This document shows, one piece after another, positions 3,722-15,916 of a stretch of DNA of 20,155 nt. The DNA lies in the IMG/VR virus record IMGVR_UViG_3300037557_000733, positions 1-20,155 of that record. The stretch is one strand, 5' to 3'. Within the stretch, counting starts at the first letter, position 1, and the number at the start of each line of letters is the position of its first letter. The notes below the pieces were generated by a model. It saw nothing but the letters and a program-made list of their open reading frames with translations. It made no database searches and had not been told where the DNA came from. The position numbers were made by a program, and so were the translations under genes. The stretch comes from a virus.

Positions 3722-4057
3722 TTAATAAGAATTATTCGGCCCTACTGCTTGTTCGCCATCTGTACATCCTTCAGAATTATATCTACTTTGTCTCCATGAA
3801 TTTTTGTCTTCATTATATCTCATCCATAATTGAGTTCCATGGGAATTGCAATATTGTACGTATATTTTTTCGTTTATAGTAAATAATCCCGCTCTACTAA
3901 AACCTTCTACTTCGGGTAACGTTTCTATAGCTTGTAACCATAATGGAGGCCGCGTCTCTGCGGCGCAGGAAGTAAGTAAGACAATCAAACTAAATGTCAA
4001 AATTATTTGGATTAAATTAAGTATAACTAAATTTAAAATGGTTTTTATCTTTATCAT
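3722..4057 (-). CDS. Small lipoprotein, last gene of the envelope operon
   Basis: A 111-residue protein with a basic N-terminus, a long hydrophobic signal (about 7-29) and a lipobox LLTSC, so Cys31 should be lipidated. The mature part is about 80 residues and contains two more Cys (in VQYCNSHG and SEGCTDG) that could form a disulfide. I do not recognise a family. Its ATG overlaps the stop of the SbmA-like gene by 4 nt (ATGA), indicating translational coupling. With three other small lipoproteins in the same operon it probably acts at the periplasmic face of the inner or outer membrane. A superinfection-exclusion or transporter-accessory role is possible but speculative. Confidence 0.75.
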   Translation of the reverse strand: MIKIKTILNLVILNLIQIILTFSLIVLLTSCAAETRPPLWLQAIETLPEVEGFSRAGLFTINEKIYVQYCNSHGTQLWMRYNEDKNSWRQSRYNSEGCTDGEQAVGPNNSY

Positions 4058-5034
4058 ATTTCTTCAATCTCTATTAACCTATCTTCAAATTCTCTTAAAC
4101 GCCTATAAACACTTACTAATTCAATAATGGTAGGCCACGATTTTAAAAGATATTGCATACTGCCTTCTACTCTACCAAATGCTCTTATTATTTGTTGCAT
4201 TACACCTAGAGTCATTACCCCAGCAACTATGGCTGGTGCTAGGAATACATAAGCTGATAATACGTTTGCTTGTAAGTAAGCCATTCGACCAATATTAAAA
4301 TATAGATAACGTATATAACTTAAAAAATGAATTTTACGAACATCATCAAAAAATTCCTCAATTTTCTTTGGTCTAACATTTCCATCATCTTCGGCTATGA
4401 CAAGTATTTTTCTATATGCCGCTTCTTTTGCTTGTATATCATATTCTATACCAACTAAACGCAATACGTACCCTAATCCAATTAAAAAAGCAGTACCACC
4501 TAATGTCCAAAGTAACGCACCTGTAATCAATCCATATTCCCAATCACCAAAAAAGAATATTGGAATGCCCATTGACAATCCAAACAGTATAGGAATAAAC
4601 TGAACCAAAACCATAACTGATTCAATTAAAGCTGTTCCTAAACCTTCCATTATACGAGTAAATTTAATTGTATCTTCTTGAACTCTTTGTGATGCACCTT
4701 CTATTGTTCTGGCTTTGTTATACACACTATGATACCATTCAACCATGGCTGTACGCCATCTAAACAAATAGTGAGCCGTAAAATAACTTATTACAACATA
4801 GAGTGCAACATATATTCCTGCTAGTGTAATAAATGATAATAGACTTGTAAAGTATTCTTCTATTGTAACTGCATTTGGTGTAGCAAGTGCTTTTTGAATC
4901 ATGTCATAAAATTGCCCGAACCACTCGTTGATTTTTACATCAATCTTTACTTGAACCCAAAGTGATCCCAAAATAATTATTGAGCCTAACCACGACCACA
5001 ACAACCATTTTTTGTCTGTAAAAAATCTCCACAT
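4054..5034 (-). CDS. sbmA: SbmA/BacA-like peptide or cobalamin transporter
   Basis: A 326-residue polytopic inner-membrane protein closely matching the body of E. coli SbmA. Shared elements include FRWRTAM (91-97), EGASQRVQEDT (112-122), EAAYRK (204-209), EDD (215-217), YFNIGR (245-250), AGVMTLG (271-277) and the ending FGRVxGSxQYLxxSW...ELxSxYRRLRxFE. SbmA/BacA proteins lack an ATPase domain and use the proton gradient to import peptides such as microcins and proline-rich peptides; relatives are linked to vitamin B12 uptake. Compared with E. coli (406 residues) it lacks about the first 75 residues, so the first membrane segments are missing or differently arranged. An AAAGGA ribosome binding site precedes the ATG, and the gene is followed by a lipoprotein gene overlapping by 4 nt. 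A phage-borne copy is unusual. Substrate is unknown. Confidence 0.85.
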   Translation of the reverse strand: MWRFFTDKKWLLWSWLGSIIILGSLWVQVKIDVKINEWFGQFYDMIQKALATPNAVTIEEYFTSLLSFITLAGIYVALYVVISYFTAHYLFRWRTAMVEWYHSVYNKARTIEGASQRVQEDTIKFTRIMEGLGTALIESVMVLVQFIPILFGLSMGIPIFFFGDWEYGLITGALLWTLGGTAFLIGLGYVLRLVGIEYDIQAKEAAYRKILVIAEDDGNVRPKKIEEFFDDVRKIHFLSYIRYLYFNIGRMAYLQANVLSAYVFLAPAIVAGVMTLGVMQQIIRAFGRVEGSMQYLLKSWPTIIELVSVYRRLREFEDRLIEIEEI

Positions 5035-5043
5035 AATATTCCT

Positions 5044-5259
5044 TTAATCATTTGTTAAAGTTGGTTCGCCTCTATCGAAAAATAACCAACGGCCTTTCTT
5101 ACAAGGACTTTGTTTTCTTTTTCCCCAAGCCATATCTGTATACACATTTTGTGTTCCTTCGCACTCTGCAAAAAAAGGTGTCATACCATTTGGCCAATTG
5201 TTCGTTTTTGAACAACTACTCATCAATAACATTACCAAAATTAGTAATGTTATTTTCAT
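5044..5259 (-). CDS. Small cysteine-containing lipoprotein
   Basis: A 71-residue protein with a short signal peptide and lipobox MSSC (lipidated Cys16). The mature part is about 55 residues with two further Cys (AECEG and SPCKKG) and many aromatic residues. I do not recognise a family. Its ATG overlaps the stop of the preceding lipoprotein gene by 4 nt, and its own stop lies 9 nt before the SbmA-like start. That arrangement suggests it is made in step with the transporter and may serve it as a periplasmic accessory. Confidence 0.7.
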   Translation of the reverse strand: MKITLLILVMLLMSSCSKTNNWPNGMTPFFAECEGTQNVYTDMAWGKRKQSPCKKGRWLFFDRGEPTLTND

Positions 5260-5495
5260 CCGTGTTGCCCCTTTTCTATATTTTTATATGGTGCTTCTTT
5301 CTCTACACATTGTCTATAAGGTGTAACATTATGTCGATTAGACCAAATAGTACCTTTCTTATGTCCGCTTCTGGATCCATCGGTGTGTCCTACCCAATGA
5401 CCAAAACAACCGGCCTTGACTTGTCTTACTGTTTCACACCCTGCAACTATCCCTGTCGCTATCATAATAAAAATTATTAATAGCATTTTTCTCAA
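5256..5495 (-). CDS. Small lipoprotein, paralogue of the next gene upstream
   Basis: A 79-residue lipoprotein with signal peptide and lipobox VAGC. After the lipidated Cys it carries GCFGHWV and, about 30 residues later, YRQCV followed by NIEK. The same elements occur in the same order in the protein at 5492-5701, so the two are tandem paralogues. The start chosen is TTG at 5495, which overlaps the upstream stop and has a GGAG ribosome binding site 6 nt away; ATG at 5486 is an alternative that removes three residues. Two conserved Cys besides the lipobox suggest a disulfide in the periplasm. Function unknown. Confidence 0.7.
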   Translation of the reverse strand: MRKMLLIIFIMIATGIVAGCETVRQVKAGCFGHWVGHTDGSRSGHKKGTIWSNRHNVTPYRQCVEKEAPYKNIEKGQHG

Positions 5496-5701
5496 AATTG
5501 ACTCCGTTTCTCTAAATTGCTTCCTTTGTTATTTTCATCTACACATTGATAATAAGGTAAATGAGCATCTTTATTAAGGGCTCTAGTTCCTCTTTCAGGA
5601 GGTCCTTTAACCCAATGTCCATAACATCCTAATGTACTTGTTCCACATCCAACAACTATCCATGTCGCCATCATTACAAAAAGCAATAATAGCTTATTCA
5701 T
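5492..5701 (-). CDS. Small lipoprotein, paralogue of the next gene downstream
   Basis: A 69-residue lipoprotein with lipobox VVGC. It shares GC(Y/F)GHWV, Y.QCV(D/E) and N(L/I)EK with its neighbour at 5256-5495, which implies tandem duplication followed by divergence. Its start overlaps the stop of the 166-aa gene by 4 nt. No family is recognised. Short lipidated proteins of this size are used by some phages to block receptors or cap the envelope, and others are outer-membrane spanin subunits. No feature here distinguishes these options. Confidence 0.7.
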   Translation of the reverse strand: MNKLLLLFVMMATWIVVGCGTSTLGCYGHWVKGPPERGTRALNKDAHLPYYQCVDENNKGSNLEKRSQF

Positions 5702-6198
5702 CTATCTTCCTTTGGATTTTTCTGAGGCATTTGATCTTTATAGTCCCATTCATAGAAACTAATATCTCCACCAATTGTGATTCCGCCTTCTTGATTTTCT
5801 TTTCCGCCTTCCTCTTCTTCTCCCTCGTCTCCTACCTCTTCACGTAAAACCATAAATTTTCCTTCTTGCTCTGATTTCTTTTTCACACCTTCTAAGGCTT
5901 GATGTGTTTCTTTTGAATACACTAGCTGGTAAGATATAGGAATTTTTTCTTTATATACAACCCACAAATAAATCCAATTTGGTTCATCAATATAATGTTT
6001 GAGATACAATCCCTCTTTTGGATTTTCAGCTCTCGGATATCCCAATATTGAAGTATATGTTACGTATGTTGATGAAACCAAAACAAGAACAAGGGGAATA
6101 AACCAAATCAAAAACTTTGGGTTTTTTCTTCCTTCAATCAACAACCATAAACATATGACCGAAAGTATTATTAATCCAAAAATTAAACTCTCTATCAT
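5698..6198 (-). CDS. Two-TM membrane protein with acidic soluble domain
   Basis: A 166-residue protein with two N-terminal membrane segments (about 4-20 and 30-49), a soluble region rich in Trp and Tyr (NWIYLWVVYKEKIP), and a low-complexity acidic stretch near 122-137 (EVGDEGEEEEGG). No family is recognised. Both ends overlap neighbours by 4 nt, tying it to the ExbD/MotB-like gene upstream and the lipoproteins downstream. With a hairpin-like membrane domain and a large soluble tail it could be a third component of the stator-like complex. This is inference from operon position. Confidence 0.7.
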   Translation of the reverse strand: MIESLIFGLIILSVICLWLLIEGRKNPKFLIWFIPLVLVLVSSTYVTYTSILGYPRAENPKEGLYLKHYIDEPNWIYLWVVYKEKIPISYQLVYSKETHQALEGVKKKSEQEGKFMVLREEVGDEGEEEEGGKENQEGGITIGGDISFYEWDYKDQMPQKNPKEDR

Positions 6199-6884
6199 CT
6201 TCCTGTCTCTCCCGCTGCACCTGTAAAGTTTGAACGATCTGTCACCGGCTGTATATTTCCCAATTCCTGCATTGGTGTCACAAACTTTTTCTTTTCAAAT
6301 GTAAATGGTTTAAGAAGTTTTCCTTCTTGATCTAAACGAAAACGAACAAAAGTTTCTTCTTGTCCTCTATGAGTAAATAGTTTCTCTCCTACCCACATTA
6401 TTGAATACGGATTTACCTTGTGCAATTCTACTCTTACTGTTATAACTGGTTTTTTAGGATTCTTATCATAATTTCTTATCGAATAATAATGTCCATTGAT
6501 AGTATATTCGCCCTTGATAATTCCACGAATAGTTACTACTTCTCTATTAATTTCAATAGTAGTTGTTGATCCATCAGCATTAACTATAGTATCATTCTTT
6601 GCACCCAAATCATCTTTATCTAAGTGCATGAAGTTGTAATTTTGATATCTAAAACTAACTTGTTTGCCCGTAGGATCTTCTACATAAAGATCAATATCTC
6701 CACTAGCATCATTGTCCCATTCCATAACAATAACAAATTCTGCTCTTCTGTTAAAATCTTCTTTTTTTGCTTCGGGTTTTATAAGAAGAAAGGCTATAAT
6801 AAAAAGAAAGGCAAAACCAAGAATAATATTAAAAAGTAAATCTATAAACCCTATTGAGGTTTTAAATCGTGAACTTGAATCCAT
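6195..6884 (-). CDS. ExbD/TolR/MotB-like stator partner with a periplasmic beta domain
   Basis: A 229-residue protein with one N-terminal membrane segment (about 12-34). It contains Asp15 within FIDLLFNIILGF, the position where ExbD/TolR/MotB proteins carry the proton-relay aspartate. The following region starts with VIVMEWDNDASGDIDLYVEDP (roughly 51-71, split here as VIVMEW and GDIDLYVEDP), resembling DUF2135/YfaP-type beta domains, and no OmpA-like peptidoglycan-binding motif is visible. It follows the ExbB/MotA-like gene by 4 nt with a GGGGGAA ribosome binding site, the usual pairing for proton-driven stators. Its role would be to convert proton flow into force on a periplasmic partner. 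What it drives is unknown. Confidence 0.7.
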   Translation of the reverse strand: MDSSSRFKTSIGFIDLLFNIILGFAFLFIIAFLLIKPEAKKEDFNRRAEFVIVMEWDNDASGDIDLYVEDPTGKQVSFRYQNYNFMHLDKDDLGAKNDTIVNADGSTTTIEINREVVTIRGIIKGEYTINGHYYSIRNYDKNPKKPVITVRVELHKVNPYSIMWVGEKLFTHRGQEETFVRFRLDQEGKLLKPFTFEKKKFVTPMQELGNIQPVTDRSNFTGAAGETGR

Positions 6885-6888
6885 TGGA

Positions 6889-7347
6889 TTATTCCCCCAA
6901 TGCTACTTCTAAATTCACTAATTGTACTTTAAGAATTAAAGAAGAAATTAATCCTATAAGGGTTGTATAAAGAGCTGTTGACATGCCCACGGCCATGCTA
7001 GCTAGAGCATCTTGAAGAGCCGCGGAATTTGTTACATCAAGATCTGTAAAAGCCGTTCCTAGCATAAGTAAGAATCCGATTACAGTTCCAATCATTCCAA
7101 GAGCTAGACAGGATTCTGAAACAAACCATCCAACATCGGTTGATTGTGAAAAATCTCTTAATTCACTAACTTTATAGGTTTTTATTCCTATCCAAGCAGA
7201 AGTAGAGAAACATAAACCAAGTATAAAAAAACTTAATTTAGTAGTATCTGCGCCGTAAAGTGTTGTGTGGAGGTCAAAATATCCTGAAATTGCTATTGAT
7301 AAAAGCATCAAGCAGAATATTAACCACCATTTAAGTAGTGATTTCAT
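6889..7347 (-). CDS. MotA/TolQ/ExbB-like proton channel subunit
   Basis: A 152-residue protein with four predicted membrane segments (about 7-22, 36-55, 77-99, 117-139). The last two carry the family signature: ESCLALGMIGTVIGFL (compare LGLLGTVxG in ExbB/TolQ) and ALYTTLIGL (compare AL.TTA.GL). It is shorter than typical ExbB or TolQ, with almost no cytoplasmic domain between segments. The next gene encodes an ExbD/MotB-like partner, so the two probably form a proton-driven stator. Ribosome binding is weak at this start. It begins the eight-gene envelope operon, 34 nt after the dioxygenase gene. Confidence 0.8.
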   Translation of the reverse strand: MKSLLKWWLIFCLMLLSIAISGYFDLHTTLYGADTTKLSFFILGLCFSTSAWIGIKTYKVSELRDFSQSTDVGWFVSESCLALGMIGTVIGFLLMLGTAFTDLDVTNSAALQDALASMAVGMSTALYTTLIGLISSLILKVQLVNLEVALGE

Positions 7348-7381: not shown

Positions 7382-8320
7382 TCAGTTTGGAAGATATTGC
7401 TTGCCTTCTTTTTTTATTTCTTCGTTTTCATTATAATCATCATCGATATAAGATTGAGCCAATCTCCATTTGAGATATTCGTAAGCTGAAATTGGTTCAA
7501 ACTTGTCTGGTTGGTTTGTAAAGTTTTCTATCATCACATCGCGGCCGGGATCAACAAAATATGGCATTGAATATCTTGATTGCTCCATATCAGTATTTAC
7601 TACTCTATGATTAGTAGATTTGAGAATTCCGTTTGACCATCTTGAAAACATATCCGCCACGTTTAGCACTATGGAATTTTCTACTACTGGAACATTTTCC
7701 CATTCACCCGTTTCTTTATTCTCTACTTGTAATCCTCCTGTATCATCAAAACGCCAAAGTAGAGTTATGCTTCCGTAATCTGTATGGCTTCCTCCGCGAA
7801 GTTGACCTTCTTTTACTTCACCGTCCCATTTTGGATAGTGTATCATTCTCATTGTTGCACTTCCATCTACGTGCTTCTCTACAAGAAAACCTTTTGGAAG
7901 AGAAAACATTTCTTCAAATTTGTAAAGGAATTCATATGAAAGTAATCGTGCAATGCGTTCTATCTTCTGAGCCTGAGGTTTGAATCTTGGTGTTCCAAAT
8001 TCTCTTGGCCAATATTTTTTTTGCATTCTATCGGGAGAAACCCAATTATAAGATTCTTTTAAATCACCCGGCATGGTTGGTGTTAATCTTTCTTCCTCCA
8101 ACCAATTATAGCCAAGATTTTCTGTAACGCCAGAATAAGCGTTAAGTTTTTTTACGTCTGTTGGCAGTTGAAAAAACTCCTCCATGAGTATTTTCCATTT
8201 TGTAAAATCTTCGAGCCACTCATCATAGACATGTGTAAAGACTGCAAATCCAACTGTAGTGTATGCATCATACATTTGGTTGACGCAATCTTTACTTCTA
8301 AAATCAATTATCGGGATCAT
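7382..8320 (-). CDS. Isopenicillin-N-synthase-like 2OG-Fe(II) dioxygenase
   Basis: A 312-residue soluble enzyme of the 2-oxoglutarate/Fe(II) dioxygenase superfamily. The iron triad is visible as H179-x-D181 (GGSHTDYGS) and H238 (STNHRVV), and the 2-oxoglutarate-binding R249-x-S251 lies in RYSMPYF. These enzymes hydroxylate or oxidise small molecules, consuming 2-oxoglutarate and releasing succinate and CO2. It overlaps the phosphoribosyltransferase gene by 17 nt, so it is probably part of the nucleobase cassette, where it could oxidise a purine or related compound. The substrate cannot be read from the sequence. Length fits the family, and all key residues are intact. Confidence 0.85.
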   Translation of the reverse strand: MIPIIDFRSKDCVNQMYDAYTTVGFAVFTHVYDEWLEDFTKWKILMEEFFQLPTDVKKLNAYSGVTENLGYNWLEEERLTPTMPGDLKESYNWVSPDRMQKKYWPREFGTPRFKPQAQKIERIARLLSYEFLYKFEEMFSLPKGFLVEKHVDGSATMRMIHYPKWDGEVKEGQLRGGSHTDYGSITLLWRFDDTGGLQVENKETGEWENVPVVENSIVLNVADMFSRWSNGILKSTNHRVVNTDMEQSRYSMPYFVDPGRDVMIENFTNQPDKFEPISAYEYLKWRLAQSYIDDDYNENEEIKKEGKQYLPN

Positions 8321-8900
8321 TTTTTTCTGGTTTAAAAATTGGGAGTTTTTCTAAATAAATTATATCACCTTTATTATATCCAGCTTCTTCCAATAAGATT
8401 GTAGCTTTACATACAATTTTACAATCAATTTTTTCTAACATTGCTTGGAGTCCTATTAGAGATCCTCCCGTGGACACTACATCATCTATAATACATACAT
8501 TCTTTCCTTCTAATTTCTTAACATCACTATTATCAAGGACAAGTATTTGTGCTCCTATAGTTGTAATAGATTGAACTTTTTCTATCATAGGATTATTCAT
8601 ATATCCCTTGACAGATTTTCTTGCAATGACATAATCTTTGTCGAACCTTCTTGCAACGGTATGTACCAGCGGTATTCCCTTTGCTTCTGGTGTACAAAAA
8701 ATATCAATTTCATCTTTCTTTGGAAAATCTTTATGAAGAATAATTGCTTCAGCACATTCTTCTATTAATTTTGTATCACCCAATATGACGAAGCTCGCAA
8801 TAGCGAGCTCGTCATTGATTTTGACTTTGGGTAACTTACGCGTGAGTCCTACAACATTTAATTCATAGAACTCATCTGTAAAAGGTTCTCCCCAAGCCAT
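8304..8900 (-). CDS. Apt-like purine phosphoribosyltransferase
   Basis: A 198-residue type I phosphoribosyltransferase. The PRPP-binding signature is VCIIDDVVSTGGS (135-147), preceded by EAKGIPLVHTVARRF and an ARK motif (about 72-95) as in adenine/xanthine PRTases. It would convert a nucleobase plus PRPP into a nucleotide in the cytoplasm, trapping imported base. It begins 1 nt after the permease stop with a G-rich ribosome binding site, and its end overlaps the dioxygenase gene. Length is close to Apt (about 170-190). Adenine is the default guess, but xanthine, hypoxanthine or guanine are possible. A strong hairpin lies within its coding DNA (8785-8815). Confidence 0.85.
   Translation of the reverse strand: MAWGEPFTDEFYELNVVGLTRKLPKVKINDELAIASFVILGDTKLIEECAEAIILHKDFPKKDEIDIFCTPEAKGIPLVHTVARRFDKDYVIARKSVKGYMNNPMIEKVQSITTIGAQILVLDNSDVKKLEGKNVCIIDDVVSTGGSLIGLQAMLEKIDCKIVCKATILLEEAGYNKGDIIYLEKLPIFKPEKNDPDN
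8785..8815. repeat. GC-rich perfect-arm hairpin inside the PRTase gene
   Basis: An inverted repeat with arms 8792-8798 (AGCTCGC) and 8803-8809 (GCGAGCT) around a 4-nt AATA loop. It extends outward by ATGACG/CGTCAT with a single bulged A at 8791, giving about 13 base pairs. It lies in codons of the early PRTase gene and is conspicuously GC-rich for this AT-rich window. It may be an mRNA structure that controls translation or decay. There is no T-tract, so it is not a terminator. Confidence 0.5.
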
Positions 8901-8901
8901 A

Positions 8902-10035
8902 TTAAGCCCCCATCATGATTAGGCTTGTACCAAATCCGGCAAGCAAACCATAAAAAGGATTAAATTTTGCAGTTACAAATGCTGCAGCACCAATTACCAT
9001 TCCTGCTGGTCCAAATCCATATGGTCCGGCAAAATCACCACCAATGCTAAGAGCACCGGAAATATTTGTAGCAAAGGTAACAAATACACCTAATACAAAA
9101 AGAAAACCTGCAATAGATGCTCTATGTACATACTGCCCAATCAAAGGCAATGCTTTGCTTAATAGAATGACTGCCATAATTCCCATCATAATACAGGATG
9201 CAACTATTGGCATAGGCGCTGCCGCAGTTCCAGAAATTATCGCTTCAACTGGACCACCACCAAAGAATGCTGATCCCATATCTGCAAGACTAGAATAAAT
9301 TGCAAGATGGTCTATATTTGTATTAGTCCCTGCAATACTTCCAGTAATTTTACCAAATGAAATATTGGCACCAATGTTTAAACATGCTAATGATAAAGCG
9401 CCAATAACAATGTTTCTATTAGTCCAAAACTTCCACTCAATGTTACCCGTTGTAAACTTTTCGCGTGAGTTGTCTACTACAATTTCTTCTAGTACAACAC
9501 CCAACTTTTCGCGCAATGGAGCATAAAACTTTAATGCAACATAAAAAAGTGTGGATAAACTTACGGACCATATAATTGTTTGTGCTAAGTCTTGGGTCCA
9601 AAACCAAGCAAGTAAAGCACTAATTAAAGATACTCCTCCTGTCCATTTTTCTGACTTAAACAAATCTACAGAAACATTCGCCAACATAATACCCACTCCG
9701 GCCATCATTGATGTGACAACTAGAGGACCAATAAAGTTAACCAACGCTTCATTCATACCAAGCAAAGAAGGAATCAACAGTAGGGTGGCACCCCAAAATA
9801 TAAGAGAGAGTCTCTCTTTTATATTATTACCTAGAGTACCAGCCAACGTGATTGTTTCTGCTTGGAAGGATATAGTTGCGACAGACATAAAGAATGCCGA
9901 ACCAATAATACCAATAACAAATGCTATTGCCGTAGGAAATGCTGCGAAGCCAAAACTTAACGCTAAAATTCCCTGTGGAATACCATTAATAACAACCGCT
10001 ATTGCGGTCAGAATGCTTTCAAATAAGCCTTCCAT
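8902..10035 (-). CDS. NCS2-like nucleobase permease
   Basis: A 377-residue polytopic membrane protein with ten or more hydrophobic segments. It looks like the xanthine/uracil permease (NCS2) superfamily, with Gly/Ala-rich half-helices such as FFGGGPVEAIISGTAAAP and FGPAGMVIGAAAFVTAKF. It is shorter than classical NCS2 members (about 430-480), and the assignment is less secure than for its neighbours. An AAAGG ribosome binding site is 5 nt before the ATG. It lies between the BMP-type binding protein (22 nt away) and the phosphoribosyltransferase (1 nt), which supports purine or other nucleobase uptake. It would act in the inner membrane by cation symport. Confidence 0.65.
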   Translation of the reverse strand: MEGLFESILTAIAVVINGIPQGILALSFGFAAFPTAIAFVIGIIGSAFFMSVATISFQAETITLAGTLGNNIKERLSLIFWGATLLLIPSLLGMNEALVNFIGPLVVTSMMAGVGIMLANVSVDLFKSEKWTGGVSLISALLAWFWTQDLAQTIIWSVSLSTLFYVALKFYAPLREKLGVVLEEIVVDNSREKFTTGNIEWKFWTNRNIVIGALSLACLNIGANISFGKITGSIAGTNTNIDHLAIYSSLADMGSAFFGGGPVEAIISGTAAAPMPIVASCIMMGIMAVILLSKALPLIGQYVHRASIAGFLFVLGVFVTFATNISGALSIGGDFAGPYGFGPAGMVIGAAAFVTAKFNPFYGLLAGFGTSLIMMGA

Positions 10036-10057
10036 ATTTACCTTTCATTATATTATT

Positions 10058-11143
10058 TTACTGTAGTTTGCCGTTTACACCTTCGACATAAAAATTCATA
10101 GTGTCGAGAGCTTGTCGCTTGATGGTATTCGGTGGAACTTTTGTTCCATCTTGCTTAGTAACACCGGCACTAAAGGGAAAGAATCTATCCATCTTGTCAT
10201 TTACCCAATCCATTTGCAGATTCTCAACATGATTAACAACTTTACCTGGAACATTGACACCCCACGGCGAAAGTCCTACACAATTTTCCTGTAGGCCCCA
10301 ATTTAACCGCTGACCTGGTTTCCACGTTCCATTTGCAACAGAGTCCGCTAAGTGTTTATACATAAGATTCCAGTTGAACATCATTCCTGAGATGTATCGA
10401 TCTGGTCCATTGTGTCCCATAGGTGCATCATTACCCATTGACCAAACTTCTTTACCGTCACGTTTCCACGCTTGTTGTGCAAGTGCAACTACACTAGGTG
10501 AATCGGTTGTGGTAAACAGAATATCATTGTTATCATCAAGAAGTGCTTTGGCAGCATCCATATCTTTAGGTGGATCGAACCAACTATTAATCCACACGAT
10601 ATTTACTTCAATGTCTGGATTTACTGTTTGAGCACCAAGTGCAACTGCATTAATATTACGAATAATTTCTGGAATTGGATGTGAACCAACTACACCAATC
10701 TTATTAGTTTTTGTCATCAATCCTGCAGCAACACCAGCAAGGTATCGTGCTTGATAACTCATACAACCATAATTATCAAAGTTAGTATCATTACCTTTGT
10801 AACCTGTAGCGTGCATGAATATTGTATCCGGAGATTTTTCTGCAGCCTTTGCCATTCCATCCATATAACCGAATGATGTTGCAAAGACAATATCGTGTTT
10901 TCGTGCAAGTTTAAGGAATATTTTTTGTGACTCAGCTTCCGGCACCATTTCAACCATGCTAACTTTATAACCATGTTTTGTCAATGATTGGAAACCATCA
11001 TGATGTCTCATTGACCATCCACCATCGGTGTGCGGTCCCACTAGAACATAACCAATTGAAGGTAATTTTCCTCCAGATACATTTACTATACTAAAGATTG
11101 CCAACCCGACAATCGTTGCCAATAAGGCAATTATTTTCTTCAT
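10058..11143 (-). CDS. BMP/PnrA-family periplasmic purine-nucleoside-type binding protein
   Basis: A 361-residue periplasmic binding protein of the BMP (basic membrane protein)/PnrA family, which bind purine nucleosides and related ligands. Family-like stretches include VGPHTDGGWSMRHHDGF near the mature N-terminus, FATSFGYMDGM, FMHATGY, and NNDILFTTTDSP. The start chosen is ATG 11143 because AAGGAG lies 5 nt upstream and a Sec signal peptide (MKKIIALLATIVGLAIF) follows immediately; an ATG 45 nt upstream (11188) lies in a hairpin and would add a non-signal extension. No lipobox Cys is present. The cognate ABC permease and ATPase are absent from the window, so it either serves host transporters or works with the adjacent permease. 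Confidence 0.85.
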   Translation of the reverse strand: MKKIIALLATIVGLAIFSIVNVSGGKLPSIGYVLVGPHTDGGWSMRHHDGFQSLTKHGYKVSMVEMVPEAESQKIFLKLARKHDIVFATSFGYMDGMAKAAEKSPDTIFMHATGYKGNDTNFDNYGCMSYQARYLAGVAAGLMTKTNKIGVVGSHPIPEIIRNINAVALGAQTVNPDIEVNIVWINSWFDPPKDMDAAKALLDDNNDILFTTTDSPSVVALAQQAWKRDGKEVWSMGNDAPMGHNGPDRYISGMMFNWNLMYKHLADSVANGTWKPGQRLNWGLQENCVGLSPWGVNVPGKVVNHVENLQMDWVNDKMDRFFPFSAGVTKQDGTKVPPNTIKRQALDTMNFYVEGVNGKLQ

Positions 11144-11172
11144 ATGAACTCCTTCCAGAGTTAAGTAGTTAA

Positions 11173-11196
11173 AATAGGTCGCTTCCACTACCTATT
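11173..11196 (-). terminator. Intergenic hairpin between isocitrate lyase and BMP gene, weak terminator-like
   Basis: On the minus strand, AATAGGT pairs perfectly with ACCTATT around a 10-nt loop and is followed by TTT. It sits in the 57-nt gap after the isocitrate lyase stop and before the BMP start. The 7-bp stem and short T run make it a weak terminator, so it may instead attenuate transcription or mark an mRNA 3' end between the two units. Confidence 0.4.
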
Positions 11197-11200
11197 ATAA

Positions 11201-12535
11201 TTAAAACTGCCCCTCCTCAGTTGATCCCTTAATTGAACTAAGACCTGAACTACCAGTACAAATCTGTCCAACTTGATCAAAATAAGATGCACCAACTTCC
11301 CGTTGATGTTTGACAGCCGTGAACCCCCGACTCTGAGCAGCGAACTCTTTTTCTTGTAGTTCAACAAACCCAGTCATTCCATTGTCTCTATATTTTTCAG
11401 ACAATTCGAACATACTATAGTTTAGAGAATGAAATCCCGCAAGGGTTATAAATTGAAATTTCACATTTAATTCACCCAATTCATCTTTAAAACTTCGTAT
11501 TTCTTTATCATTTAATTTTGCTTTCCAATTGAAAGATGGAGAACAGTTATATGCAAACATTTTATCTGGATATTCAACCTGAATTTCTCTTACGAATTCT
11601 GTTATTTCTCCTATGTCTGGTACTCCTGTTTCCATCCAAATTAAATCACAATATGGAGCATATGCAAGTCCTCTTGAAACTGCTTGTTCCATTCCTGCTT
11701 TCACCTTGAAAAAACCTTCTTCGGTGCGATCTGATTTTTTTCCACCTACCATGGAGCCGCCCCATTCTTTATCTATAATAAATTCACTATCATATACATC
11801 ACTATCACTATTTAATAATCCTCCAGAAAGTGCATCAGTTCTTGCAATAATAATAGTCGGGACATTCATAATATCTGCTGCTAATCTTGAAGCTATAAGT
11901 TTATTAACCATTTCTGAAGTAGAAACTAAAACTTTCCCACCCATATGTCCGCATTTTTTTGCAGAGGATAACTGATCTTCTAAATGGATTCCCGCAGCAC
12001 CGGCTTCAATTAAATGTTTAACTAGTTCATGTGTATTAAGAACTCCACCGAATCCGGATTCTGCATCTGCGACAATTGGAAGAAAATAATCTATTTCCCC
12101 TTGTCGATCTTCCATTGTTTGGATTTGATCTGCTCGTATAAATGTATTGTTGATTCTTTTAACTACTGTCGGAACGCTACCTACTGAATACAAAGATTGG
12201 TCTGGATACATCTCTAGACTATCATTTGCATCCCCTGCAACTTGCCAACCACTCAGGTAGACTGCCTCTAAACCTGCTTTGGCTTGTTGCATTGCTTGAT
12301 TACCTGTTAATGCACCCAGCGCACTAACATATTTTTTCTCATGAAATTTTTTCCAAAGTTTTTCCGCACCGTTTAATGCGAGAGTGTATTCTATATTAAT
12401 AGATCCACTTAATTTTTTAACGTCTTGGGTAGTATAAGGTCTTTGAATAGATTTTTGCCGGTCGCGCATCCAATATTTAGTTTCATTTAAACTAAATTCA
12501 TTATCCTTTGCCACTTGACTCTCCGCTAGATACAT
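11201..12535 (-). CDS. aceA: Isocitrate lyase, full length
   Basis: Isocitrate lyase splits isocitrate into glyoxylate and succinate, the first step of the glyoxylate shunt. The 444-residue protein aligns by eye with E. coli AceA (434) along its length: [10 protein letters not shown] (95-104), [16 protein letters not shown], the catalytic loop KKCGHMGG (193-200, Cys195), WMETGVPD (300-307), NCSPSFNW (330-337), and the terminal GSTEEGQF. All catalytic elements are intact, so it is probably active. ATG 12535 has a weak ribosome binding site; GTG 12514 has GGAG 6 nt upstream and may be the real start. A perfect late promoter box lies at 12559-12566. Malate synthase is not in the window. This gene is unusual for a phage. 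Confidence 0.95.
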
Positions 12536-13684: not shown

Positions 13685-14353
13685 TTAAAGTGTTCTACAT
13701 ACTGTAGAAGATTGACACAACAAATATTTCATTCCATCCAAAGTAAACTTCAATTCACCTATGATTACATCAAGTATATTTAATGCACCACCTAAAACGT
13801 CATCTCCGAAAGGACCTTGCAAAACAAATATTACAATTGCGCTCATCATTCCTAAAAGAAAACTCATGTATGACCACTTGAGGAATCTATATTTCCTAAG
13901 TGCAAGAACTTTACCTTGTCCATATATGTCACCGGCCATGGCATCATATACAGAATCATCAGTCATTAAAGTTTCTGCATAATCTTCCTTATACTCTTCT
14001 ATTGGAATATGTGCAAAGTGTCCGAAAAACAAAGGATTGAATAGTGGAGATTTTCTATCTATATCTCCTGCTTCATCTTTTGGATAATCTGTTTTTGGTA
14101 TGATTGCAAATATTGCAAAGAGTAGTGCAAAAAAACAACCAAATGCAAATGTTAGAAGTGGCCATTTTACCAATTCATTATCAAGGTTTGCAATCGCAAT
14201 AGAAAATACAACAGATGCAACTGTAATCATGATATTTGCTTTTGCATCCGCCATCAAGTTCAATCTCATTTGATTGCCGTGATTGACTCGCAGAATATTA
14301 TCTACTGCTGTTCTATTTTCTGGTACTTTTGAAAATTGATTAATTTTATCCAT
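13685..14353 (-). CDS. Pycsar-effector-like (PycTM) membrane protein
   Basis: A 222-residue protein matching the PycTM/DUF5706 effector pattern. It has NQMRLNLMADAKANIMI (28-43) leading into the first TM (about 41-57), a second TM (about 64-85), a soluble stretch with FFGHF (109-113), EEYKEDYAETL and DIYGQGKVLALRKYRFLKWSY, and a third TM (about 162-178). In bacteria such proteins are membrane-damaging effectors of Pycsar anti-phage defence, activated by cyclic pyrimidine nucleotides; many homologues outside defence loci are uncharacterised. No cyclase is present here. The C-terminal about 40 residues are extra to the family core. It has a strong AGGAGGTG ribosome binding site and precedes membrane and holin-like genes. 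Superinfection exclusion, a nucleotide sink, or lysis are possible roles. Confidence 0.75.
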   Translation of the reverse strand: MDKINQFSKVPENRTAVDNILRVNHGNQMRLNLMADAKANIMITVASVVFSIAIANLDNELVKWPLLTFAFGCFFALLFAIFAIIPKTDYPKDEAGDIDRKSPLFNPLFFGHFAHIPIEEYKEDYAETLMTDDSVYDAMAGDIYGQGKVLALRKYRFLKWSYMSFLLGMMSAIVIFVLQGPFGDDVLGGALNILDVIIGELKFTLDGMKYLLCQSSTVCRTL

Positions 14354-14363
14354 ACTACACCTC

Positions 14364-15449
14364 CTACTTTAATGGTGGTGCATATAGTAGTCCTCCATGA
14401 CTATAAAGTTGATTCAGTCCTCGCTTTAGTCCCAATATTTCTGCAATATTGCGGTTATATATCTCTTTGTAATTTCCAACCTGTTTAATAATATCGTATG
14501 ACCAAGTAGCACTTAATCCCAATTTAGCTCCAAGATTGGGATGGTCTTTTCCATTCTTTTCACCCATAAATCGTTGAATATTTGGGTCTATGTTCTCTAT
14601 GAATGAATCTATATTCTTTGAGTTGATACCCATCTCTTCTGCAATGAATAGAACATATATTGACCATCTTACTATATCTGACCACTTTTGATCTCCATAC
14701 TTAACAACTGGTCCCAATGGTTCTTTTGAGATAATCTCTGGAAGTATCATGTGCCGAGAGGGTTCCTTAAAACCTAATCTGTTAGATGCAAGACCAGACC
14801 TATCAGTACCATACATATCACAATCACCAGCCAGATATATATTTTTAGCATTCTTATCTGGTGGTACAGGAATAGGAATATAATTTATTTCATGTTTTGT
14901 GAAGAAATCTGCAATATTTTTCGCGCCAGTTCCAGTACTACTGAAACAAATCTTTGCACCCTCTAGTTGTTTAGCAGAAGATACTCCAAGTGTTTTTCTT
15001 ACAATAAATCCCTGACCATCATAATATGTTGTTGGTAGAAACTCAAGTTTCTTAATTACATTTCGTGTAAAGGTATAAGTAGTTGCCGCAGAAAGAATAT
15101 CAATAGTTCCATCTCTCAAAAATTCAAATCTAGTCTTTCCATTTGTTGCAATGAATTCAATTGCTTTTGAATCACCGAATACTGCTGCAGCGACTGTACG
15201 ACAAATATCAACATCAAATCCTGCAGCCTCTCCTCGTAATACTGAGAACCCTAGAAAGTCAGGATTCGTACCACAAATAACTTTTCCTCTTGCTTTTACT
15301 CTTTGGTATGTGGAACCGAATGTTGGATTGTATTCTGGTTTTTCAATCACAGACATAGATGCATTATCTTTACCAATGGCAAAATTATCTATAATCATTA
15401 TCCAGAATATCCATGCCAAACAAACAAAAGCTCTAGATGCAAATATCAT
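14364..15449 (-). CDS. aapJ: AapJ-like general amino-acid ABC transporter binding protein
   Basis: A 361-residue periplasmic binding protein of the AapJ/BztA type, which deliver polar and acidic L-amino acids to an AapQMP transporter. Signatures are RVKARGKVICGTNPDFLGFS, AAGFDVDICRTVAAAVFGD, LSAATTYTFTRN, the DCDMYGTDRSGLA region, and the C-terminal LKRGLNQLYSHGGLLYAPP, typical of AapJ. A hydrophobic N-terminus (about 5-25) serves as signal peptide. Its ATG overlaps the stop of the CxxCH-protein gene by 4 nt, and the PycTM-like gene follows 10 nt later. Permease and ATPase genes are absent, so it would reprogram or boost the host's own transporter, as PstS is thought to do in cyanophages. Confidence 0.9.
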   Translation of the reverse strand: MIFASRAFVCLAWIFWIMIIDNFAIGKDNASMSVIEKPEYNPTFGSTYQRVKARGKVICGTNPDFLGFSVLRGEAAGFDVDICRTVAAAVFGDSKAIEFIATNGKTRFEFLRDGTIDILSAATTYTFTRNVIKKLEFLPTTYYDGQGFIVRKTLGVSSAKQLEGAKICFSSTGTGAKNIADFFTKHEINYIPIPVPPDKNAKNIYLAGDCDMYGTDRSGLASNRLGFKEPSRHMILPEIISKEPLGPVVKYGDQKWSDIVRWSIYVLFIAEEMGINSKNIDSFIENIDPNIQRFMGEKNGKDHPNLGAKLGLSATWSYDIIKQVGNYKEIYNRNIAEILGLKRGLNQLYSHGGLLYAPPLK

Positions 15450-15916
15450 TGTAGCGTCCGATATATGTTCAATAATTCTGCATCGGGCATAGCGGTAGTC
15501 ATTGTATAATATCGTTGATGTCCAACCGCCATAAAGGATTTGACATCAGAAAAACTGGGATATTTCTTTAAGAGATTGTGGAGTAGATAATCTGGTGCCA
15601 AATGACACTCTGCACATTGATTATCTTTCGCAAATACTCTAGTTGATTTTTTGTATCGTTCTGATTGAACTAGAATAGAATTAAGATCCTTTTCCATATA
15701 TGTAACTTTTTTATCTATGTCAGGTATAACCATAAAAATTAAATATATAAGAAGTGCTATAATAACATAGATGAAAGATTTACTTGCAACTATTTGATCT
15801 TTTTCTGCGAGTTCCAGCTGTACGACATCTTCAATCTTTCTATCCAGTTCTTCAATATCATGTTGTATTATTTTTTGGTCTTTTCCGTTTGCAACAATTT
15901 TTTCTTTTTCAGCCAT
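15446..15916 (-). CDS. Membrane-anchored protein with a c-type cytochrome heme motif
   Basis: A 156-residue protein: a charged, helical cytoplasmic N-terminus (1-45), one membrane segment (about 47-66, SFIYVIIALLIYLIFMVIP), a helical linker, and a small C-terminal domain with CAECH (101-105). TAMPDAELLNIYRTL at the end resembles the axial Met-Pro and final helix of class I cytochromes c, making Met143 a candidate sixth ligand and His105 the fifth. With the C-terminus in the periplasm, heme would be attached by the host Ccm machinery. The domain is only about 55-60 residues, short for a cytochrome c. A GAGGT ribosome binding site is present. It may move electrons near the membrane, or the motif may bind heme or metal otherwise. 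Confidence 0.7.
   Translation of the reverse strand: MAEKEKIVANGKDQKIIQHDIEELDRKIEDVVQLELAEKDQIVASKSFIYVIIALLIYLIFMVIPDIDKKVTYMEKDLNSILVQSERYKKSTRVFAKDNQCAECHLAPDYLLHNLLKKYPSFSDVKSFMAVGHQRYYTMTTAMPDAELLNIYRTLQ

Follow-up and report, generated by a model that had tools for sequence, protein, structure and literature searches.

What kind of machine do phages encode when they carry genes that resemble the stator of a proton-driven motor? The question arises from the 20,155-base virus record IMGVR_UViG_3300037557_000733, analysed here over its whole length and called the window below. It comes from a marine phage with T4-like tailed-phage genes (small terminase, tail sheath stabiliser, head closure and head-tail adaptor), and the genes of interest lie in the cargo region past the small terminase. 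An earlier note on this DNA had described a phage-encoded stator pair forming a minimal motor with a new output domain; both open reading frames were present where that note had placed them, on the minus strand (Table 1). Few proton-driven 5:2 motors are known, and a field of research has grown from every one of them (flagella, Ton, Tol, gliding, Zorya). Excerpts of superfamily surveys list Mot, Ton, Tol, Agl, Zor and vWA-linked types and mention domains of unknown function in many non-flagellar types (PMC12505986, PMC12204202, PMC9389320). The three-gene set reported here, A-B-C, is not described in these excerpts, and we found no description of it in the papers searched on phage ExbB/ExbD cassettes, on DUF2135 with ExbD or on quinoproteins with ExbB/ExbD. 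We consider it reasonably probable that A-B-C belongs with the proton-driven 5:2 motors, as a variant not described before, and that it acts near the inner membrane.

Table 1. Coordinates of the cassette and its flanking lipoprotein genes in the window
Feature	Position	Strand	Basis
Gene A, putative channel subunit, 152 aa, MotA/TolQ/ExbB family	6889..7347	-	PF01618, hydropathy, invariant residues
MotA_ExbB core match in A, residues 81-140, TM3-TM4	6928..7107	-	Pfam profile search
Thr128-Thr129 of A, aligned with the TolQ TM3 threonine region	6961..6966	-	conservation 59/59; profile alignment
Gene B, putative axle subunit, 229 aa, one TM helix and periplasmic domain	6195..6884	-	ORF, model, relatives
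Asp15 codon of B, candidate proton-carrying residue	6840..6842	-	54/54 relatives read through Asp15
Predicted periplasmic beta-sandwich of B, residues 50-195, TerD-like fold; invariant acidic D63, D65, D91, D92, E115	6300..6737	-	model, structure comparison, conservation
Gene C, third subunit, 166 aa, two TM helices (2-25, 27-52) and predicted small beta domain with one long helix	5698..6198	-	ORF, alignments, model
C-terminal tail DQMPQK of C, counterpart of the bacterial PxLPEK tail	5719..5736	-	alignment
Small predicted lipoprotein directly past C, accessory, close relatives only	5492..5701	-	lipobox ATWIVVGC; 8 viral loci
Second small predicted lipoprotein, similar to the first, accessory	5256..5495	-	lipobox IATGIVAGC; neighbour clustering

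The product of gene A matched the MotA_ExbB family (PF01618, Pfam) with 32.3 bits and an E-value of 9.6e-8, above the cut-off of 22.9 bits, and the A proteins of bacterial relatives scored 34.6-41.5 bits. With tailed-phage structural genes in the same window, this match bears out the reading of the pair as phage-encoded and of the proton-channel type. The elements LGMIGTVIG (residues 83-91) and ALYTTLIGL (residues 125-133), on which that reading had drawn, are both present in A, and Gly84, Gly87, Thr128, Thr129 and Gly132 were invariant in 59/59 relatives. The A profile aligned with the TolQ chains 9kpz and 8odt at E 0.04-0.05, Thr128-Thr129 included, and in the PDB profile search its TTLVGL stretch paired with the ATAIGL stretch of TolQ. 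The PDB matches were mostly to TolQ, MotA and ExbB chains, each of them weak (E 0.04-0.8); PHROGs returned nothing for A. Hydropathy indicated four hydrophobic segments (about residues 2-27, 38-56, 74-105 and 118-150), and the same four occur in the bacterial A proteins measured. The channel subunit had been called unusually short, correctly so: the TM2-TM3 loop has almost disappeared, which leaves 152 residues where the measured bacterial relatives have about 196-243.

Gene B starts four bases past the end of A, on the same strand. Its product has a single transmembrane helix, placed at residues 9-34 by the model and at 9-40 by hydropathy. Asp15, singled out before as an acidic residue in this helix, does lie in it, near its cytoplasmic end, and was found in 54/54 relatives whose chosen start includes it; 12 further relatives, trimmed at an ATG just after Asp15, are outside this count. 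The full B reading frames that were inspected read FxDxLFN. The conservation of Asp15 and of the glycines and threonines of A argues that the motifs are not due to chance. No Pfam family was above cut-off for B, and neither ExbD/TolR nor OmpA/MotB matched it at E-values up to 1; bacterial B proteins likewise lacked an ExbD/TolR or OmpA/MotB match. The absence of an OmpA-type Pfam match agrees with the claim that the partner has no peptidoglycan-binding motif, and the expected kinship with ExbD/MotB profiles did not materialize. Since B has no ExbD/TolR match in Pfam, we assign the axle role from its position, its topology and the aspartate. B matched no family in NCBIfam or PADLOC either, and its two marginal matches in PHROGs (E 0.0085 and 0.025) were to families of unknown function.

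About 15 residues past the helix the predicted periplasmic head of B begins. The model, built from 66 sequences (pLDDT 85.8), consists of the helix at 9-34 and a beta-sandwich for which Foldseek gave a TerD-like match at E 9.5e-4. Re-alignment of the Foldseek candidates yielded Z scores of 10.9 for the TerD structure 3ibz (rmsd 5.1 over 137), 9.9 for 2qng (rmsd 3.5 over 128), 9.7 for 2qz7 (rmsd 3.3 over 126) and 8.8 for the calcium-binding TerD 2kxt (rmsd 4.3 over 135), and after these four TerD structures the next-best group dropped to 6.5. The head is thus predicted, with good confidence, to have a TerD-like fold. The order of its acidic residues, D-x-D, then D-x-D-D, then E, also resembles that in TerD sequences fetched for comparison. 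In contrast to this agreement in fold and acidic order, B has no detectable sequence homology with the TerD family of tellurite resistance and calcium binding: PF02342 did not match, and hhalign gave a probability of 0.2%. We therefore make no claim of homology, as the profile comparison failed despite the fold match. TerD proteins are soluble and cytoplasmic. The family has calcium-binding members, and the head of B, with its conserved acidic residues, probably binds calcium.

The earlier note had seen a DUF2135/YfaP-like segment, GDIDLYVEDP, as the mark of the output domain. The segment is indeed there, at residues 62-71, but the family assignment did not stand. PF09906 had no match to the window B in Pfam, and in two bacterial B proteins it matched below threshold (13.3-16.8 bits, cut-off 22) at another segment, about residues 125-150. 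The nature of the domain is better described by the predicted TerD-like fold.

A third gene, C, follows B, its start overlapping the end of B by four bases. The window C protein aligned with the C proteins of Rhizobium phages, and a wider C alignment matched the Rhizobium phage C alignment with a probability of 99.5%, a score helped by the presence of the window C in both. The soluble domain of C begins directly past TM2 in the model. C had no family in Pfam, NCBIfam or PADLOC and nothing in PHROGs, so that PHROGs offers no convincing family for B or C. Among the structures listed, OB/S1-like chains were middling candidates for the C domain (best Z 6.3 over 70 residues), from which we drew no conclusion. 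In bacteria, a conserved lipoprotein of about 230 aa lies directly past C, about 1.1-1.2 kb downstream of B (e.g. L158, L161, L142), in 43 of the 69 loci that leave space for it, but at none of the phage loci; it is DUF3108-like below cut-off and is a possible fourth component. The small lipoproteins of the window and its near relatives are unrelated to it.

Tblastn with A gave no match in cultured phages, and we therefore used B as the bait for relatives. The first eight B proteins, aligned together, proved too diverse to serve as a scan query. Six-frame profile searches replaced the initial gene calls in the bacterial and viral loci, the first calls having been poor in GC-rich ones. At our scan thresholds, with E-values relative to the candidate stretches, B-bearing contigs numbered at least 188 viral and at least 469 bacterial. 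The cassette may represent a further motor type in which B and C carry no family name. We fetched 193 loci through B, some of them the same contig under two ids, and found A, B and C together in 184, in phages and bacterial chromosomes alike. Most of the nine loci without the full trio end at a contig edge. One of the nine, L155, is an orphan B; it and a second orphan copy without A or C (L234) belong to the same genome (G005), which also has a complete cassette (L233). The trio was present in 20/20 loci from a genome sample, a divergent subfamily included. We conclude that A, B and C form one unit. Of the proposed minimal motor with a new output domain, the domain unlike that of known B subunits stands, but the set comprises three genes, not two.

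With B as query, 26 cultured phage records were found, all of Rhizobium or Sinorhizobium phages, which makes the cassette open to genetics. In Rhizobium phages the trio consists of a multi-TM protein of ~145 residues, B, and a two-TM protein of ~145 residues with a soluble domain. Two temperate-type Rhizobium phages have a gene inserted between A and B in an otherwise intact trio. The insert resembles homing endonuclease genes of the GIY-YIG/Seg type (L007:4162-4920 and L008:4111-4848).

In bacteria, the neighbourhood of the cassette pointed to alcohol oxidation. Quinoprotein-system genes lay within 6 kb of the cassette in 56/80 bacterial loci, the best 80 of at least 469, as counted by six-frame clustering of the neighbours and a follow-up count. 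The neighbours include PQQ-dependent alcohol dehydrogenase, PqqB, PqqE, a MoxJ-like binding protein, a PedC-type ABC permease and a PQQ-associated beta-propeller; NCBIfam names the exemplars accordingly, with the MoxJ-like and beta-propeller ones below cut-offs. As these loci were the best of the set, we tested whole genomes for the joint occurrence of B and PqqC. PqqC was present in 10/22 alphaproteobacterial genomes with B versus 21/168 (p 5e-4), and in 14/22 gammaproteobacterial genomes with B versus 13/163 (p 9e-9), by a test that ignores phylogeny. The layouts of the quinoprotein genes vary between lineages (e.g. L131, L130, L142, L173, L139), which argues against a single inherited layout. 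Within about 6 kb of the divergent subfamily there were no quinoprotein neighbours; the link is thus frequent in bacteria but not universal. It suggests that the cassette may energise a step of PQQ/quinoprotein alcohol oxidation, a possibility open to test.

The phage copies have a history and setting of their own. The tree of B largely keeps phage and bacterial proteins in clades of their own; it requires about three changes between the phage and bacterium labels, and well-supported branches force at least two. Phages have therefore probably acquired the cassette more than once. Among phage relatives pN/pS was 0.14-0.49 for A, B and C, with many comparisons near synonymous saturation; all three genes are under purifying selection. 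The cassette sits among replication and nucleotide genes in T4-like marine contigs and Rhizobium phages. A search of 14 cassette-bearing phage records for PQQ beta-propeller enzymes found none, and no quinoprotein genes were near the cassette in the phages tested. An SbmA/BacA-like transporter gene (window 4054-5034, minus strand; 445.8 bits) is found repeatedly near the cassette, in 12 viral loci.

We propose that A, B and C would assemble into one complex, an inner-membrane motor of the MotA/TolQ/ExbB superfamily driven by the proton motive force, presumably with 5:2 stoichiometry in its A-B part. In it, A would form the ring of the channel and B would serve as axle, while Asp15 of B would ferry protons past the A threonines. 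Such carriage would correspond to that in known motors of the superfamily, where the proton is carried by an aspartate halfway along the B helix (PMC9389320). The TerD-like, probably calcium-binding head of B would sit in the periplasm near the membrane, and C would be a third, obligate subunit in the membrane, its small domain likewise at the periplasmic face. With the head of B only about 15 residues beyond its helix and the C domain directly behind helix 2, neither protein appears made to cross the periplasm. Neither B nor C contains a stretch that could span the distance to the outer membrane, and the motor therefore probably acts on a partner close to the inner one. In bacteria this partner would often be part of a PQQ-quinoprotein alcohol-oxidation system, commonly with a lipoprotein. 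Phages, having probably taken up the cassette more than once, may have kept it as an auxiliary module that energises the envelope, and would be a case of phages carrying a motor of their own; tentatively, its use might be to support the energised periplasm of the host during infection.

Known systems offer other readings. The gene order of motor, motor and extra membrane protein resembles ExbB-ExbD-TonB and TolQ-TolR-TolA, with which the cassette shares the Pfam family of A, the single B helix with an invariant aspartate and a third inner-membrane protein that completes the set. It might thus be a force transducer of the Ton/Tol type, one that works through C and a lipoprotein to energise the outer membrane, whether for the uptake of nutrients or for a stable envelope; a lipoprotein follows C in many bacteria and some phages, TonB receptors lie near 8 loci and the window holds several import genes. 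We regard this as unlikely, because C, a protein with two TM helices, lacks a linker that could span the periplasm and matches neither TonB nor TolA in Pfam or PDB, and the lipoprotein is missing at most phage loci. Moreover, the cassette differs from these systems in the four hydrophobic segments of A and in the TerD-like sandwich head that B has instead of the ExbD/TolR fold. MotA-MotB, the flagellar stator, shares with the cassette the four-TM A subunit and the aspartate in the B helix, but the cassette lacks its OmpA-like peptidoglycan-binding domain and long linker, and the cytoplasmic loop of phage A is very short. The vWA-type motor-coupled transducers beside tolQR-like genes (PMC12204202) similarly combine a motor with an unusual head, but both the head domain and the third gene differ from those of the cassette.

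A resemblance to Zorya defence had also been suggested, and a phage motor that detects DNA entering through the envelope or keeps it out, Zorya-like or for superinfection exclusion, would share the logic of a motor driven by the proton motive force. ZorA gave the best-named of the weak matches of A (PADLOC ZorA2, E 4.7e-6 at best), a relation at superfamily level, and a Pycsar-effector-like gene is present in the window (13685-14353). The NCBIfam ZorA score of 22.3 bits is, however, far under the curated cut-off of 500, B and C matched no defence family in PADLOC, and the long ZorA tail is absent. Among the genes scanned in the window, itself a genome fragment, no ZorC/ZorD or ZorE was recognised, nor was a nuclease partner beside the cassette. 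The extra subunit C and the bacterial copies next to alcohol-oxidation genes, rather than recognisable defence genes, also set it apart, and we consider this reading improbable; membership of the cassette in Zorya, Ton or Tol is not supported. Membrane proteins accompanied by small lipoproteins in some phages recall spanins, as in a lysis module powered by the proton gradient that would disrupt the outer membrane or set the time of lysis. This is very improbable given the lack of a conserved place near lysis genes, the replication and nucleotide genes around the cassette in T4-like and Rhizobium phages and the occurrence of the same cassette in many bacterial chromosomes. The loss of most of the cytoplasmic loop in the short phage A could also suggest a decoy that poisons the Tol, Ton or Mot stators of the host by subunit mixing. 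Such a decoy is the hardest of these readings to credit: the residues implicated in proton flow are invariant, purifying selection acts on all three genes, and C would be superfluous.

Further genes of the window, all on the minus strand, are of interest in their own right. The Pycsar effector-type membrane protein is PycTM (79.7 bits, cut-off 27.2). A full-length isocitrate lyase is encoded at 11201-12535 (NCBIfam equivalog, 659 bits, cut-off 562), an unusual central-carbon gene of the glyoxylate shunt to be borne by a phage. The window also encodes an amino-acid-type family-3 solute-binding protein (14364-15449) and a membrane protein with a CxxCH heme-binding-like motif and no family match (15446-15916). 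At 8304-11188, a BMP-family nucleoside/B6-type binding protein is paired with a multi-TM protein lacking a family match, possibly a permease; an adenine phosphoribosyltransferase-like gene adjoins this pair, and together they look like a phage uptake and salvage set.
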